Of a stretch of 64,000 nucleotides of DNA, positions 26,017 to 33,559 are shown in pieces. Source of the DNA: Paenibacillus sp. FSL K6-0276. Lineage in GTDB: Bacteria; Bacillota; Bacilli; Paenibacillales; Paenibacillaceae. Under the pieces are notes generated by a model. The model was not told the DNA's origin, searched no databases, and saw only the letters and a program-made list of their open reading frames with translations. The position numbers were made by a program, and so were the translations under genes. The stretch covers positions 2,604,001-2,668,000 of the forward strand of contig NZ_CP150276.1 in the NCBI RefSeq assembly GCF_037977235.1, in the 5' to 3' direction. The stretch's first letter is position 1, and each line of letters opens with the position of its first letter.

Positions 26017-26051
26017 ACCTTAATGGGCTTTGCGCCTGTTAAGGTTTTTTT
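26017..26051 (+). terminator. Terminator after the molybdopterin oxidoreductase gene
   Basis: ACCTTAATGGGC pairs with GCCTGTTAAGGT, followed by seven T. Confidence 0.9.
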
Positions 26052-26413: not shown

Positions 26414-27160
26414 ATGTTGAAAGGTGCAAAATTCATAAAGCTGCTGGGGCTTATAGTTAGCGTGGTGTTACTGAATATTATAGTCTTGTCACCAGGGTTA
26501 TTAGGGGTCGAAATTGGGGGAGTAAGTGTTTTAGAGACTTCCTTTGGCGTGACATTAGTAGTGATTAGTCTTCTTGTTGTCCTTTATGGAAGTTATAATT
26601 TGTTGTTTAAATCTTCGGTGGTTCCACCTGTAAAAGAGATAAAGACGCATGAGGATTATATATCAGCACTCACGCAATACAGAAATGTAAAGGTGCTGAA
26701 GAAGGACATTAGTCTGGCTTTGGATCAGGTAACTCGGATGGAGAAGAAGAAAAATACGTTAGTGGTTGTCCTTAGTCAGAGATTTGAGCAGACGGAGCTA
26801 AGCTTCAAGAAGTTTGGTGCGGTCAGTTATGAAGTAGAGAAGCTTTTCTATCTGAATATCCGAGGAATACTTAATAAGTTAAGTGTTTTTGATGCTTCGG
26901 AATTCTCCCTTTTTGCCAGTCAGCAGAGACCTGCGCAGTTCTCGGATAAATTGGTGCAGAAAAAAACGGCGCTATACAATGAATACTTGGCTTATGTAAC
27001 AGGGTATCTCGGAGCAAACGAAGAAATTCTGCTGAAGTTAGATCAATTACTACTCGAAATATCGCTACTGGACAGTACGAATTATAAAGATGTTGAAGAT
27101 ATGCCATGTATGAAGGAGATCGATGAATTGATCAAACAGACGAAATTCTATAAGCAATGA
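26414..27160 (+). CDS. XpaC-like membrane protein of the VWA/TelA module
   Basis: 248 aa from the ATG at 26414, 5-6 nt after AGGAGG; a GTG at 26408 overlaps the site. Two N-terminal membrane helices (KLLGLIVSVVLLNIIVL and VTLVVISLLVVLYGSYNLL) are followed by a cytoplasmic helical domain. That domain opens VPPVKEIKTHEDYISALTQY and carries long coiled segments. The layout, and a TelA gene two places downstream, fit XpaC (5-bromo-4-chloroindolyl phosphate hydrolysis) proteins, which travel with TelA. The family name is historical; the biochemical role is unknown. The gene ends 13 nt before the VWA gene and surely shares its transcript. Confidence 0.7.
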   Translation: MLKGAKFIKLLGLIVSVVLLNIIVLSPGLLGVEIGGVSVLETSFGVTLVVISLLVVLYGSYNLLFKSSVVPPVKEIKTHEDYISALTQYRNVKVLKKDISLALDQVTRMEKKKNTLVVVLSQRFEQTELSFKKFGAVSYEVEKLFYLNIRGILNKLSVFDASEFSLFASQQRPAQFSDKLVQKKTALYNEYLAYVTGYLGANEEILLKLDQLLLEISLLDSTNYKDVEDMPCMKEIDELIKQTKFYKQ

Positions 27161-27173
27161 AAGGAAGATGTGT

Positions 27174-28862
27174 ATGGCTAGGAAAGGGAGAACATTTGTA
27201 GCACTTGGGATTATAACAGTAGTCGTTTTTGCTCTTGTTTATTTTGGGATCACTTTAACCTCTAATTTAGGCAAAACCACTAGTGAGGTCTCGTCAGAAG
27301 ATGCAGGGAAACGACTGGATAAACTTTATAAAAAGATTAAAGTAGATACCGCGGAGCAAGTCAAAGGTCAAATCGACCTCGATCCTGTAGCGATTGGTGA
27401 TTCCTTACCGGATATTTCTAAGTTTCCTATATCAGTAACCAATACAACGGATAGCTTTGTCGAAATCTTCTCATCCACAGAGAAATCTGGTACAGGTAAT
27501 GATGGATGGTTGAATGAAGTGGCGACAGATTTCAATAATTCCAATATTGAGGTGAACGGAATACCTGCTTCGGTTAAGATTCGCAATATTGCTTCAGGTA
27601 CAGCGACGGATTACATAAGGTCTGGTAAATATATACCAGATGCTTTCACACCATCCAATGAGTTATGGGGCGAGATGGTAAAAGCGAACGGAATTAACAC
27701 GCAGCTTATAACTAATCGTCTTATTGGCAATGTAGCCGGTATTGTTACGAATAAAACGAAATATGATGAGTTAGTCGAGAAGTACGGTTCTTTAAACGTC
27801 AAGACGATTACAGATGCGATAGCAAATAATGAATTATCTATGGGCTATACAGATCCTTTTGCTAGCTCAACAGGTTTGAACTTTCTTGTGACTGCCCTTG
27901 GGACGTTTGACAGCTCTGATTTGCTTGGAGAACAAGCGGTTCAGGGCTTTGAGAAATTCCAAGCGAATGTACCTTTTATCGCGTCGACTACTTTACAAAT
28001 GCGTGATGCGGCTAAAACTGGGAAGCTGGATGCTTTTGTCTTAGAGTACCAAATTTACGCAAATGCGCCCGAACTAAAGGGTAGTTATGTATTTACTCCT
28101 TTTGGTGTAAGGCATGACAGCCCCCTTTACGCATTAGGTGATCTACCACAAGAGAAGCTGGACATTATTAAGAAATTTGCGGAGTTTGTTGAACAGGATA
28201 AATATCAGCGTTTGGGTGAGGAAAAAGGTTTTAACGGACTAAATGACTATCATTCGGAGGTTAATCCAGTGGATGGCAGTCTATTATCCTCGGCACAAAA
28301 GTTGTGGAAGGAGAAGAAAAACGGCAATAAGCCAATTGCGGCAGTATTTGTAGCTGATGTCTCAGGTAGCATGAACGGGGAGCCTTTAAATCGCTTAAAG
28401 CAATCATTATTAACGGGACAGAAGTACTTGGGCAAGGATAATAGTATTGGTTTTGTTTCCTATTCCGACAACGTTACGATAAACCTTCCTATTGGTAAGT
28501 ACGACACGAATCAGCAGTCGATGTTTGTAGGGGCGATAGATAGTCTTCAGGCGAATGGGGGGACAGCGACTTTTGATGGAATTGTGGTGGCACTCAAAAT
28601 GCTTCAAGACGAAATGAAGATAAACCCGGAAATCAAACCTTTAATCTTTGTATTAAGCGATGGAGAGACGAATGAAGGTCATTCACTGAATGATATCAGA
28701 GGCTTAATTGAAACCTACAAAATTCCGATTTACACCATTGGCTACAACGCAAATATTAAAGCACTGGAGAGCATTTCAAGTATTAATGAAGCGGCTAACA
28801 TCAACGCGGATACAGACGACGTAGTCTATAAAATCGGAAACCTGCTTAATGTTCAAATGTAA
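27174..28862 (+). CDS. Membrane-anchored fusion of a solute-binding-like domain and a VWA domain
   Basis: 562 aa from the ATG at 27174, 6 nt after AAGGAAG. One N-terminal helix (TFVALGIITVVVFALVYFGI) anchors it outside the cell. Residues about 95-360 resemble a type 2 periplasmic-binding fold (SFVEIFSSTEKSG, DGWLNEVATDFNN, PDAFTPSNELWGEMVK, GYTDPFASSTGLNF). Residues about 385-560 are a VWA domain with a complete metal-ion site: VADVSGSM, GGTATFDG and LSDGETN. So a ligand-binding lobe is joined to a metal-dependent protein-binding lobe. It lies between the XpaC-like and TelA genes. It probably senses or captures something outside and passes the state to partners; this is inference. Confidence 0.88.
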   Translation: MARKGRTFVALGIITVVVFALVYFGITLTSNLGKTTSEVSSEDAGKRLDKLYKKIKVDTAEQVKGQIDLDPVAIGDSLPDISKFPISVTNTTDSFVEIFSSTEKSGTGNDGWLNEVATDFNNSNIEVNGIPASVKIRNIASGTATDYIRSGKYIPDAFTPSNELWGEMVKANGINTQLITNRLIGNVAGIVTNKTKYDELVEKYGSLNVKTITDAIANNELSMGYTDPFASSTGLNFLVTALGTFDSSDLLGEQAVQGFEKFQANVPFIASTTLQMRDAAKTGKLDAFVLEYQIYANAPELKGSYVFTPFGVRHDSPLYALGDLPQEKLDIIKKFAEFVEQDKYQRLGEEKGFNGLNDYHSEVNPVDGSLLSSAQKLWKEKKNGNKPIAAVFVADVSGSMNGEPLNRLKQSLLTGQKYLGKDNSIGFVSYSDNVTINLPIGKYDTNQQSMFVGAIDSLQANGGTATFDGIVVALKMLQDEMKINPEIKPLIFVLSDGETNEGHSLNDIRGLIETYKIPIYTIGYNANIKALESISSINEAANINADTDDVVYKIGNLLNVQM

Positions 28863-28886
28863 GTTACAACTTTTAGGAGGGGTTCT

Positions 28887-30026
28887 ATGTCTTTTACTAT
28901 GGAAGTGGTAAGTCCGGAGAAATTGAAATCGGCGATTGAAGAACAGGTTAAACCTGAGCCAGAGGAAGTAACGCAACTGAAGGAAATGGCGATAACTAAT
29001 GTCTCGACGATCTTGGAGCTTGATTTAGAATCTTTGGATAAACGAAAAGAGGTCCTTCAATCCATCGATAGCTTCGGGATGAGCACCATGAGATCATCTT
29101 CAGATAAGAACTCCCTTTTGCAAGTTTCGGTAGGGAATTTATCAAAGACTGGGGATGAAGGGGGTCAAGTAGCCAAGGGTTTAACAGAACTCAACCTTCA
29201 GTTGAAAGATCTGGACCCAAGTGCAGTGGATTTTGCCAAAAGTGGTCTTCTAGGGAAGTTCTTTAACCCATTGCGGAGTTATTTTGCGAAGTATCAAAAA
29301 GCAGATGCTGTAATCTCAGATATTATCATTTCTTTAGATAAAGGCAAAACCGTATTGAAAAATGATAACACTACATTAGAGTTTGAGCAGCAATCGCTTA
29401 GAGAGCTCACTAAAAAACTGCAGAAGGAAATTCAACTCGGTATGCTGATGGATCAGGAGATTGAGGCTCAACTAGAAGCAGCCAAGCTTCGGAATGAGTC
29501 CGAAGAAAGGGTAAGGTTCATAACAGAGGAGGTGTTGTTTCCTCTGCGTCAGCGTGTGATGGATCTGCAACAGATGCTGGTAGTGAATCAGCAAGGAATC
29601 ATGGCCATTGAAGTGGTTATAAGAAATAATAAAGAGCTAATTAGAGGGGTGGACAGAGCTAGAAATGTTACGGTTTCAGCTCTGAAAATTTCCGTTACTG
29701 TAGCAAGTGCACTCTATAATCAACGAATCGTTCTGAAAAAGATTGAACTCCTAAATCAAACGACCAACACGCTAATAAGCGGCACTTCAAAAATGTTGAA
29801 AGATCAGGGGGCGGCAATCCATAAGCAATCTCTTGAATCTAGTATCTCGGTAGATACACTAAAACAGGCATTCACTGATGTATTATCGGCTTTAGATTCA
29901 ATTAGCACGTATAAGCAGGAAGCACTCCCTAAAATGCGCGAAACCATTAACCAGTTCATAGAGCTGGCAGATAGCGGAGAACAGCAGATCGTGCGGCTGG
30001 AGAAGGGGAATAAGCTGGGGTTGTAG
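28887..30026 (+). CDS. TelA-family toxic-anion-resistance protein
   Basis: 379 aa, preceded by TTAGGAGGGG. The protein is almost wholly helical and coiled coil, with no membrane segment. The TelA core is seen in DKGKTVLKNDNTTLEFEQQ, LQKEIQLGMLMDQEIE, FPLRQRVMDLQQMLVVNQQG and VIRNNKELIRGVDRARNVT. TelA proteins are linked to tellurite and envelope-stress tolerance, but their mechanism is unresolved. It is the last gene of the three-gene module, 24 nt after the VWA gene, and a terminator follows, so all three are co-transcribed. Confidence 0.9.
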   Translation: MSFTMEVVSPEKLKSAIEEQVKPEPEEVTQLKEMAITNVSTILELDLESLDKRKEVLQSIDSFGMSTMRSSSDKNSLLQVSVGNLSKTGDEGGQVAKGLTELNLQLKDLDPSAVDFAKSGLLGKFFNPLRSYFAKYQKADAVISDIIISLDKGKTVLKNDNTTLEFEQQSLRELTKKLQKEIQLGMLMDQEIEAQLEAAKLRNESEERVRFITEEVLFPLRQRVMDLQQMLVVNQQGIMAIEVVIRNNKELIRGVDRARNVTVSALKISVTVASALYNQRIVLKKIELLNQTTNTLISGTSKMLKDQGAAIHKQSLESSISVDTLKQAFTDVLSALDSISTYKQEALPKMRETINQFIELADSGEQQIVRLEKGNKLGL

Positions 30027-30041
30027 AATAGTTTGAACAAT

Positions 30042-30071
30042 GGAGTGCGTAGAACTTACGCACTTTTTTTA
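30042..30071 (+). terminator. Terminator of the XpaC-VWA-TelA operon
   Basis: AGTGCGTA pairs with TACGCACT, followed by seven T. Confidence 0.9.
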
Positions 30072-30178: not shown

Positions 30179-31415
30179 TTAAGAGCCTTCTGGCTCCGAA
30201 TCAAGCTGCACATTGTAGCCCAAAGATGCTAATTGTTTGACTAACCGTCTTGCTCTGACGTGCTGATTCAGATGATCCAAGTAATCTACACCTAGTTCTA
30301 CATAAGGTTGCTGTCGAAGGAGCATGTGATAAATCATGGTGAGCATCTTGTGTGCCGTTGCAATCAGCGCCTTTTTCTTACCACGACGGGCAGCTAACTT
30401 CCAGTACTTCGAAGCTAAATACGTTTTTTTCGTTCGGGATGCCGCCCACGCGGACTCGGCAAGGATGGATTTTAGGTGTGGGTTGCCATGGAGGATACGT
30501 GAGGACTTTTTTTTCCAGCACTTTCGTAGTTGCCAGGGGATAAACCGGCCCAAGAAGCCAAGTGGCGCTCGGAATGAAACTGAAGCATGTCCGCACCGAT
30601 CTCAGCTAAAATGGCGGAAGCGGCAGTCACATCCACGCCTGGAAGAGTTCGGAGAATTTCGATTTCGACACGATAGGGTGCTAAATGTGAGTCTATGGTT
30701 TCATCGAAGTCCTGAATGGAATGCTCCAGGTGAGTAAGATGCTGCCAGGATTGAGCGAGAAGAAAACGATGATGGGAAGAAAGTTTACCTTGCAGTGCAT
30801 CCATGAGTTGGGGGACTTTGTTCTTGATTTGTCCCTTGACGAGGGAACGTACGGATTCCTTATCCAGTCTGCCATTGTCCATGAGTTGGCGGAGCAAGGC
30901 GCGTCCCGTCACACCAAACACGTCGGAGATTACGGAAGCAAGTTTGATGCCAGCAGATTCCAGTACCTTCTGGATACGATTTTTTTCTGCGGTCATGTGA
31001 TGAACCAACTTCTTCCGATGGCGCGTAAGTTCGCGAAGTTCCCGGCTTGAGGCGGAACGAAGCTGCCTTCAATAAGGCCGGAGCGAAGGAGTTTGGCGAT
31101 CCATTCCGCGTCGGAGATATCTGTTTTACGTCCAGGAACATTCTTGATACGCTGAGCATTGGCGAGTCTAATCTCACAAGACTGTTCGAGCACATGATAA
31201 ACAGGCTTCCAATAAACCCCTGTACTTTCCATAGCCACGTGGGTGCAGGAAGCAGCTTGAATCCAGGCCTCAAGCTCATGCAAGCCCTTGGACATTGTTG
31301 AAAAGGTGCGAATTTCTTTGTGGGGACGATCTTGGAGGTTGCCGCTTAAGAGACAAGCCACGACCGTATCCCGGTGGACGTCGAGTCCACAACAGTGTTC
31401 TAAAATTGCTTCCAT
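30179..31415 (-). pseudogene. IS110/IS116/IS902-type transposase with two frameshifts
   Basis: The start is MEAILEHCCGLDVHRDTVVA (31415), 8 nt after GGAGGG. The DEDD domain has GLDVHRDT, AMESTGVYWKP and KTDISDAEWIAKLLRSG. A 1-nt shift near 31049 moves the frame to ELRELTRHRKKLVHHM. The C-terminal domain has LRTLPGVDVTAASAILAEIG and SWAGLSPGNYESAGKK. A second shift falls in an A8 run (30507-30514), after which HGNPHLKSILAESAWAAS continues to the stop. About 410 residues in all, normal for the family. The A8 break might be slippage or a sequencing error, but the first is not in a homopolymer. Confidence 0.92.
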
Positions 31416-31610
31416 GAAATAACCCTCCAAACGAAATGTGTGGAGGGACAGAGTAGGCTGCTGAGAAAGTAAGGATTTTTTTACACGTGCTCATCCGAAG
31501 ATGGCGACAATGGGTTGTGCTCATGACCAGCCGTAGACGGTTTTTTGTACGGGGTTATACCACCATTAAAGACCTCGTGTTTCTTCTGTCCCTCTATTCA
31601 TAGAATAGAC
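31416..31610 (-). other. Noncoding left end of the IS110 element, candidate bridge-RNA region
   Basis: About 195 nt lie upstream of the transposase start. TCTGTCCCTC (31585-31594) and GAGGGACAGA (31443-31452) are an exact 10-bp inverted repeat that would close a roughly 150-nt RNA. GTGCTCAT occurs twice inside (31487 and 31517). In IS110-group elements this end encodes the bridge RNA that guides recombination (established). That this copy makes one is inference. Confidence 0.5.
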
Positions 31611-32836: not shown

Positions 32837-33559
32837 ATGAACGATAAATTGTATACAATGCCGATCGGAGGGTTAGATTCCATGCAGATTCCCGTAGAAT
32901 CGAAATCACAATCTAAACCCGGCAAACGTCGAACAAGTCCCAAGACCTATCGGAGTATTTTGTATTTTATAATCTCTTTACCGATTACGATTGTATATTT
33001 CGTCTTTATGGTGACGGGGCTAGCGTTATCCATTGGGTTAACACCCATTTTCATCGGTATTCCCTTATTTTTCGCAGTAGCCAAAGGATTGGATTACATC
33101 GTACAATTTGAGCAAGAGTTAGTAAGATCATTGCTGGATATCCCTAGACCGAGTGAAGAGCGTAGAGCGGATATGAAGCAAGAGGGAGCAGGTTTTCTGC
33201 AACGGATGAAGTTAGGCTTTGATGGTGCAAAGTTTGCACGTAACATCATGCTGATTATGGGACGATTCGTATCAAGCATCATCTTCTTTTCACTAACGAT
33301 AACCGTCGTAGCGGCTGCGCTGGGTCTGATTACACTACCTGTGCTCCATCAGATTTTCCTGCAAACGATGGATTTGAACATTTTGGAGAATAGTGTATTT
33401 GCTTTATTTAATATCGACTGGACTTTATCACAGCAATATATATCTTATGTTGTAGCGGGACTTGTCTTCGCCCTGATCGCAAATTGGGTGATTCGAATGC
33501 TGATGGATGTACAGCGTAGAATGTTGTTTGTATCCTACGAGGAAGAACGTCAGTATTAA
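32837..33559 (+). CDS. Membrane protein with putative sensor domain (PF13796-like)
   Basis: 240 aa. A 40-residue charged N-tail precedes four hydrophobic segments (ILYFIISLPITIVYFVFMV, GLTPIFIGIPLFFAVAKGL, a pair at about 140-185, and ISYVVAGLVFALIANWVI). The layout of two helices, a cytoplasmic loop with an FEQELVRSLLDI motif, then two or three more helices matches the putative-sensor domain often fused to histidine kinases. Here it stands alone with no kinase. It may partner a kinase elsewhere. The promoter-like region upstream (TCTTAACC...TATAATG) is about 30 nt before the start region. Confidence 0.75.
   Translation: MNDKLYTMPIGGLDSMQIPVESKSQSKPGKRRTSPKTYRSILYFIISLPITIVYFVFMVTGLALSIGLTPIFIGIPLFFAVAKGLDYIVQFEQELVRSLLDIPRPSEERRADMKQEGAGFLQRMKLGFDGAKFARNIMLIMGRFVSSIIFFSLTITVVAAALGLITLPVLHQIFLQTMDLNILENSVFALFNIDWTLSQQYISYVVAGLVFALIANWVIRMLMDVQRRMLFVSYEEERQY

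Follow-up and report, generated by a model that had tools for sequence, protein, structure and literature searches.

A Conserved Three-Gene Unit of Paenibacillus Encoding a Solute-Binding–VWA Protein, a Two-Helix Membrane Protein and TelA, with a Possible Role in Envelope Stress

Locus Layout

The soil bacterium Paenibacillus sp. FSL K6-0276 carries a compact unit of three genes that ends in a gene of the TelA family; the unit is described here from a 64-kb window, i.e., the whole stretch of DNA analysed, and all coordinates are positions in this window. An initial annotation made from the letters alone had read the region as three consecutive genes with gaps of 13 and 24 nucleotides (nt) and one terminator, and its coordinates, strand and gene order proved exact. 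The features are as follows:

26414..27160 (+): gene 1, 248 amino acids (aa), two N-terminal transmembrane (TM) helices followed by a helical domain in the cytoplasm; proposed transmembrane adaptor
27174..28862 (+): gene 2, 562 aa, N-terminal TM helix, solute-binding domain and VWA domain; predicted to face outside, receptor-like
28887..30026 (+): gene 3, TelA family, 379 aa, all helical, without a TM segment
30042..30070 (+): terminator-like hairpin of the intrinsic type (30042-30066 plus T-run), ending the unit after gene 3
26017..26051 (+): terminator-like hairpin (26017-26045) of the preceding gene, for a molybdopterin oxidoreductase, setting the unit apart upstream

The gap of 13 nt lies between genes 1 and 2 and that of 24 nt between genes 2 and 3, and a scan of the window found no same-strand terminator-like hairpin between the three genes.

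Conservation of the Unit in Related Genomes

Among 101 genomes sampled around the window's own genome, 48 have gene 2 at full strength; these 48 also have gene 1 and the matching TelA (at least 238 bits, or split in one fragmented assembly), and one further genome has gene 1; the trio is absent from 53, except for one scar of genes 1 and 3. The order gene 1–gene 2–TelA on one strand was found in the loci checked by script, and the other trio genomes agree by coordinates. The scar, in genome G031 (L192, position about 4679), joins gene 1 up to approximately residue 175 with gene 3 from residue 333, and its flanks are 85–94% identical to those of G028, a close relative with an intact trio; it is a natural deletion in which gene 2 was lost entirely and gene 3 for the most part. 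In another genome, G019, gene 2 is frameshifted. Presence of the trio is all-or-none, and the three genes form a conserved unit that is gained and lost together. The genes flanking it in the window recur in no more than 5 of some 108 loci and only the nearest species retain them, so the unit stays together while its surroundings change. Two further features lie on its 3' side:

30475..31430 (−): broken IS110-family transposase in two frames (PF02371, PF01548), just 3' of the unit, with no IS110 copy at the corresponding place in related loci
32837..33559 (+): putative sensor-domain membrane protein (PF13796), unrelated to the three-gene unit

The Solute-Binding–VWA Protein

Gene 2 is built of one membrane anchor and two globular domains:

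27195..27251 (+): sole N-terminal TM helix, residues 8-26, by hydropathy
27447..28322 (+): bilobed domain like class II periplasmic binding proteins, residues 92-383, by Pfam PF13531 and predicted fold
28332..28859 (+): VWA domain, residues 387-562, by Pfam PF00092 and predicted fold
28356..28370 (+): DVSGS motif (D395, S397, S399) of the metal-ion-dependent adhesion site (MIDAS)
28563..28565 and 28659..28661 (+): further MIDAS residues T464 and D496, respectively

The two domains match SBP_bac_11 (PF13531; E 1.2e-10, 42 bits against a cut-off of 25, residues 111-353) and VWA (PF00092; E 8e-17, residues 391-542). In the AlphaFold model of gene 2 (mean predicted local distance difference test score, pLDDT, 88; predicted template modelling score, pTM, 0.79), the binding domain aligns with sulfate- and thiamine-binding proteins over about 270 residues (fold matches 1sbp, 5um2 and 2qry, Z about 22), while the VWA domain matches 4fx5 at Z 22.3, with many MIDAS proteins at Z about 22. 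Positively charged residues precede the N-terminal helix and there is no second TM segment, and the topology predicted from these features strongly implies that both domains lie outside and that gene 2 has no cytoplasmic domain. Of 95 relatives, 15 carry a lipobox-like motif at the position of the helix according to a loose pattern, and in about a dozen of these its placement is convincing. The initial annotation had described an outside-facing binding lobe fused to a VWA domain with a full metal site; the outside placement and the fusion stand, as does the metal site, since D395, S397, S399, T464 and D496 are invariant in 55 gene 2 sequences from several phyla, whereas the single lobe gives way to a complete two-lobed domain.

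In the same 55 sequences, residues S141, G142, S231, G234, T273, E97, E103, R137 and H314 of the binding domain are invariant or nearly so, and the invariant Ser, Thr and Gly sit at helix starts, in cleft-type positions. Such residues at helix starts are a common oxyanion-holding device of binding domains of this kind, so an oxyanion or a phosphorylated molecule may be guessed as the ligand. The fold neighbours do not tell the ligand apart because binders of sulfate, thiamine, ferric ion and molybdate reach similar scores. PF13531 being a solute-binding family, gene 2 could also be a substrate-binding protein that feeds a transporter in nutrient uptake; this is very improbable: no ABC permease or ATPase is consistently linked to the unit in the fetched flanks, where an ABC ATPase cluster turns up at varying offsets in 9 of 95 loci, the steady neighbours are gene 1 and TelA, and transport proteins do not usually carry a fused VWA domain.

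The Two-Helix Membrane Protein

Gene 1 had been read as a two-helix membrane protein, and hydropathy places both helices at its start:

26432..26488 (+): TM helix 1, residues 7-25
26528..26584 (+): TM helix 2, residues 39-57

Gene 1 matches no Pfam family. Its best-conserved residues, Q105, L120, N148, D160, N202, L206, L212 and E215, all lie in the inner part, and its outer loop is variable; an acidic residue of this loop was considered as a conserved MIDAS ligand and was ruled out because it is not conserved. Gene 1 had also been called XpaC-like, which holds for the layout, with two TM-like segments encoded in one unit with TelA, but not for the sequence. The XpaC family model (PF10112, Halogen_Hydrol) matches neither gene 1 nor any protein of its own genome, although the same search also missed the B. 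subtilis control and the model is therefore not exhaustive; profile–profile comparison with 20 PF10112 proteins gave a probability of 6%, so no homology to XpaC is detectable by sequence. Homology to the small membrane protein of the Ter operon was likewise rejected, since profile–profile comparison gave no signal. A sequence search of solved structures gave no meaningful match for gene 1 or gene 3. Loci L112 (4261-5863) and L113 (3435-4983) carry a tandem pair of gene 1-like proteins 5' of gene 2, and the second of each pair has, by eye, a CxxC zinc-ribbon-like motif at its start.

TelA

The identity of gene 3 as TelA, assigned at the outset, is confirmed by profile (PF05816, E 8e-76, 255.6 bits against a cut-off of 30, model positions 14-330 of 332). 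Its predicted structure is all helix and of low confidence (pLDDT 62), with a long helical hairpin at 128-307 of moderate confidence. Against the PDB, the model has no match with E below 1e-3, and F-BAR, ClyA and designed bundles appear at E 0.006–0.3; a likeness of TelA to PspA or ESCRT-III is thus unsupported by structure. In a tree built from 75 TelA proteins, one supported set (96/94) contains 51 trio TelAs, and those of L154, L097, L164 and L170 join the XpaC-partnered TelAs on long branches.

Wider Distribution and Exchange of Partners

When species genomes were scanned with an alignment of 15 sequences, at least 338 gene 2 relatives were confirmed in bacteria and archaea, and neighbourhoods were read from 80 kept loci. 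These cover Clostridia, Bacilli, Coriobacteria-type Actinomycetota and the methanogenic archaea Methanothrix/Methanocrinis, together with one deltaproteobacterial/myxococcal and one Rhodocyclaceae metagenome-assembled genome (MAG), metagenome bins being open to contamination. The fused sensor had been thought the uncommon part; with this number of relatives and its recurrence across phyla, the fusion is neither uncommon nor unique to this genome. In 47 of the 80 loci, gene 1 precedes gene 2 and TelA follows directly, with median gaps of 13 and 24 nt, and by the script criterion gene 1 adjoins gene 2 in 72. The set is kept in the order TelA–gene 1–gene 2 in L164, L170 and L226, and in L154 TelA is followed by a 231-aa protein without a match and then by gene 2.

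TelA is a separable part of the unit: gene 1–gene 2 also occurs where TelA is missing, belongs to another lineage, or is replaced by PspA. In the 99%-complete genome G873, gene 1–gene 2 is present and TelA is found nowhere, and in G855 and G692 TelA lies only elsewhere than the gene 1–gene 2 locus. In three Lachnospiraceae MAGs (L165, L166 and L171), PspA_IM30 (PF04012, E 1e-36 to 1e-40) follows gene 2 directly, at 40–93 nt; that this replacement is widespread was dropped, because a 250-genome sample of the family Lachnospiraceae gave none beyond the genomes already known. In L126, L142, L146 and L152, gene 2 is followed by short proteins (about 205 aa) that an iterated TelA profile picks up as TelA-like, and two of the three tested fall below the Pfam cut-off. 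Flotillin/SPFH genes lie near L109 and L159. Small helical proteins of no Pfam family are encoded just 5' of gene 1 in the TelA-less Lachnospiraceae units L161 (3880-4311), L163 (4618-5019) and L168 (4854-5222), where they may stand in for TelA.

VWA proteins are often metal-dependent assembly factors. The trio could accordingly be an assembly or chaperone machine, in which the outer VWA–binding protein builds or repairs an envelope complex, e.g., for wall synthesis or respiration, and TelA or PspA is the scaffold inside. The exchange of TelA for PspA and the SPFH neighbours would fit it, and PMC11237479 reads PspA neighbours with chaperone-like Band-7 and TPM proteins in this way. This explanation is nevertheless unlikely, since the strongly conserved binding cleft points to a genuine ligand, for which an assembly factor would have no use, and no client gene stands consistently next to the unit in the fetched flanks.

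An anti-phage or conflict module is suggested by the patchy presence of the trio within the genus and by a weak PADLOC match of gene 1 to DruB (E 5e-4). The match runs across the TM/helical stretch and is probably a compositional artefact, genes 2 and 3 have no PADLOC match, no homologue of TelA was found on viral contigs nor one of gene 2 in phages, and the unit shows conserved evolution across phyla, all of which leaves such a module scarcely credible.

Comparison with Known Systems

It has been reported that xpaC-yaaN(TelA) belongs to the core sigma-W envelope-stress regulon of B. subtilis (PMC3498285), that Lactococcus xpaC and telA1 are induced by membrane-protein overproduction stress linked to CesSR (PMC3139573), and that xpaC is up in an Enterococcus liaR mutant (PMC10269926). 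Listeria lacking TelA is 4-fold more sensitive to nisin and 2-fold more sensitive to tellurite (Collins 2010, as cited in PMC12791056). The XpaC-YaaN operon of Bacillus, Listeria and Lactococcus resembles the trio in that a gene for a small membrane protein directly precedes the TelA gene, and a PF10112 gene adjoins the TelA gene at all 20 of the XpaC-type loci fetched. Unlike the trio, it has no solute-binding–VWA gene, XpaC has no detectable sequence homology to gene 1, and its TelA forms a branch separate from the main trio TelA.

The trio is not a Ter operon, as its neighbourhood contains no TerD or Ter biosynthetic genes. The genome's canonical Ter operon lies at G000:C1:380078-393348 (L033), 2.2 Mb from the trio (window at 2.60-2.67 Mb), and comprises TerD genes, C-C lyase, PRTase_2/TRSP, StiP/PELOTA, HAD, ATPgrasp_Ter, an unassigned 237-aa membrane protein and a second TelA; the five TerD hits of the genome all fall at 380-383 kb, and the biosynthetic genes and the second TelA within 380-392 kb. 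A TPM-domain protein is encoded near this operon. As in the trio, its TelA is preceded by a small membrane protein; unlike the trio, it has TerD and biosynthetic genes and no solute-binding–VWA protein. A Ter-type response, in which gene 2 would sense a metal or metal oxyanion and TelA would give resistance, draws on the family name of TelA, on the tellurite sensitivity cited above for the Listeria telA mutant and on the likeness of the binding-domain fold to sulfate, molybdate and ferric-ion binders. It is improbable, because the genome has its own Ter operon at that distance, with its own TelA and small membrane protein, the trio TelA falls on a different branch, and presence of the trio in the related genomes is independent of Ter-type TelA.

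By membership, the trio is not a phage-shock (PSP) system either, since PspA_IM30 is not in the window unit and takes the place of TelA only in L165, L166 and L171, and TelA is not a member of the PspA family. In B. subtilis, PspA, which protects the membrane, is kept there by two membrane proteins and an SPFH protein (PMC8581546), so the PspA/YdjFGHI module is like the trio in having a cytoplasmic helical protein held by membrane proteins. The described PSP systems that were read differ in having no solute-binding–VWA receptor, and TelA, XpaC and VWA are not mentioned in the main text of PMC11237479. VWA proteins encoded on cyanobacterial plasmids (Stanieria, Pseudanabaena) are full-length homologues of gene 2 with 31–32% identity, some with a lipobox-like motif; in contrast to the trio, neither gene 1 nor TelA was detected alongside them. 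Prohibitin/band 7 genes occur in two of the three cyanobacterial neighbourhoods read, and on the Pseudanabaena plasmid ABRG53c (L054, 5962-9653) tandem gene 2 homologues lie near a prohibitin-family gene.

Proposed Function

The trio is tentatively proposed to be a membrane-spanning envelope-stress sensor–effector complex that runs from the solute-binding–VWA receptor through the two-TM adaptor to TelA, a reading to which we assign a probability of roughly 0.4. Gene 2 would be held on the outer face of the membrane by its one helix, with a lipid taking this part in some relatives; the bilobed domain would bind a small ligand, possibly bearing an oxyanion, and the VWA domain would dock a partner through its metal site. 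Gene 1 would sense the ligand or docking state of gene 2 in the membrane and relay it across by its two membrane helices and conserved cytoplasmic helical domain, and TelA inside may then protect or reorganise membrane or wall machinery, a role that PspA would fill in one lineage. The initial annotation had proposed an envelope machine in which ligand capture outside is passed through VWA to TelA inside. The unit is conserved, and an outside-to-inside machine at the envelope agrees with its architecture and with what is on record for other TelA pairs; the relay fails, because the VWA and binding domains lie on the same outer side and gene 2 lacks a cytoplasmic domain, so only gene 1 could carry a signal inward.

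An envelope role is suggested because other TelA proteins or their XpaC partners, in B. subtilis, Listeria, Lactococcus and Enterococcus, are tied to envelope stress. PspA at the place of TelA, together with the SPFH genes, also supports it, since PspA of B. subtilis works with SPFH and membrane proteins. Several points weigh on the other side. The envelope role is carried over from TelAs of other lineages, and the XpaC-type TelAs form a separate branch. No sigma-W-like (extracytoplasmic function, ECF) promoter was found upstream of gene 1 in the window, and the sporadic matches in a few relatives are not recurrent. Gene 1–gene 2 without TelA in G873 means that TelA need not be the only output; the PspA replacement, which the wider sample returned in the same genomes only, may be one event in three genomes of one family; and about half of the related genomes (53 of 101) do without the trio. 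More doubtful than the complex itself is a widespread class of transmembrane envelope surveillance, in which an extracellular ligand-binding/VWA receptor would act through a two-TM adaptor on an exchangeable membrane-protecting effector inside, TelA or PspA.

Significance

It is already known that TelA occurs with a small membrane protein; a description of the trio, of a solute-binding–VWA receptor as a standing partner of TelA, or of PspA as its alternative was not found in the literature searched, although an earlier mention in Ter comparative genomics (Anantharaman 2012) is possible. TelA proteins have been tied to tolerance of tellurite and antimicrobial peptides by a mechanism that is not established. 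A conserved partner on the outside that combines a binding cleft with a docking domain at a metal site is a plausible source of input to TelA, and the exchange with PspA hints at a possible output; if effectors are indeed exchangeable, TelA would be a functional counterpart of the ESCRT-III-like PspA. The all-or-none distribution, the natural deletion and the exchangeable partners make the system directly testable in non-pathogenic species of Paenibacillus or Bacillus.

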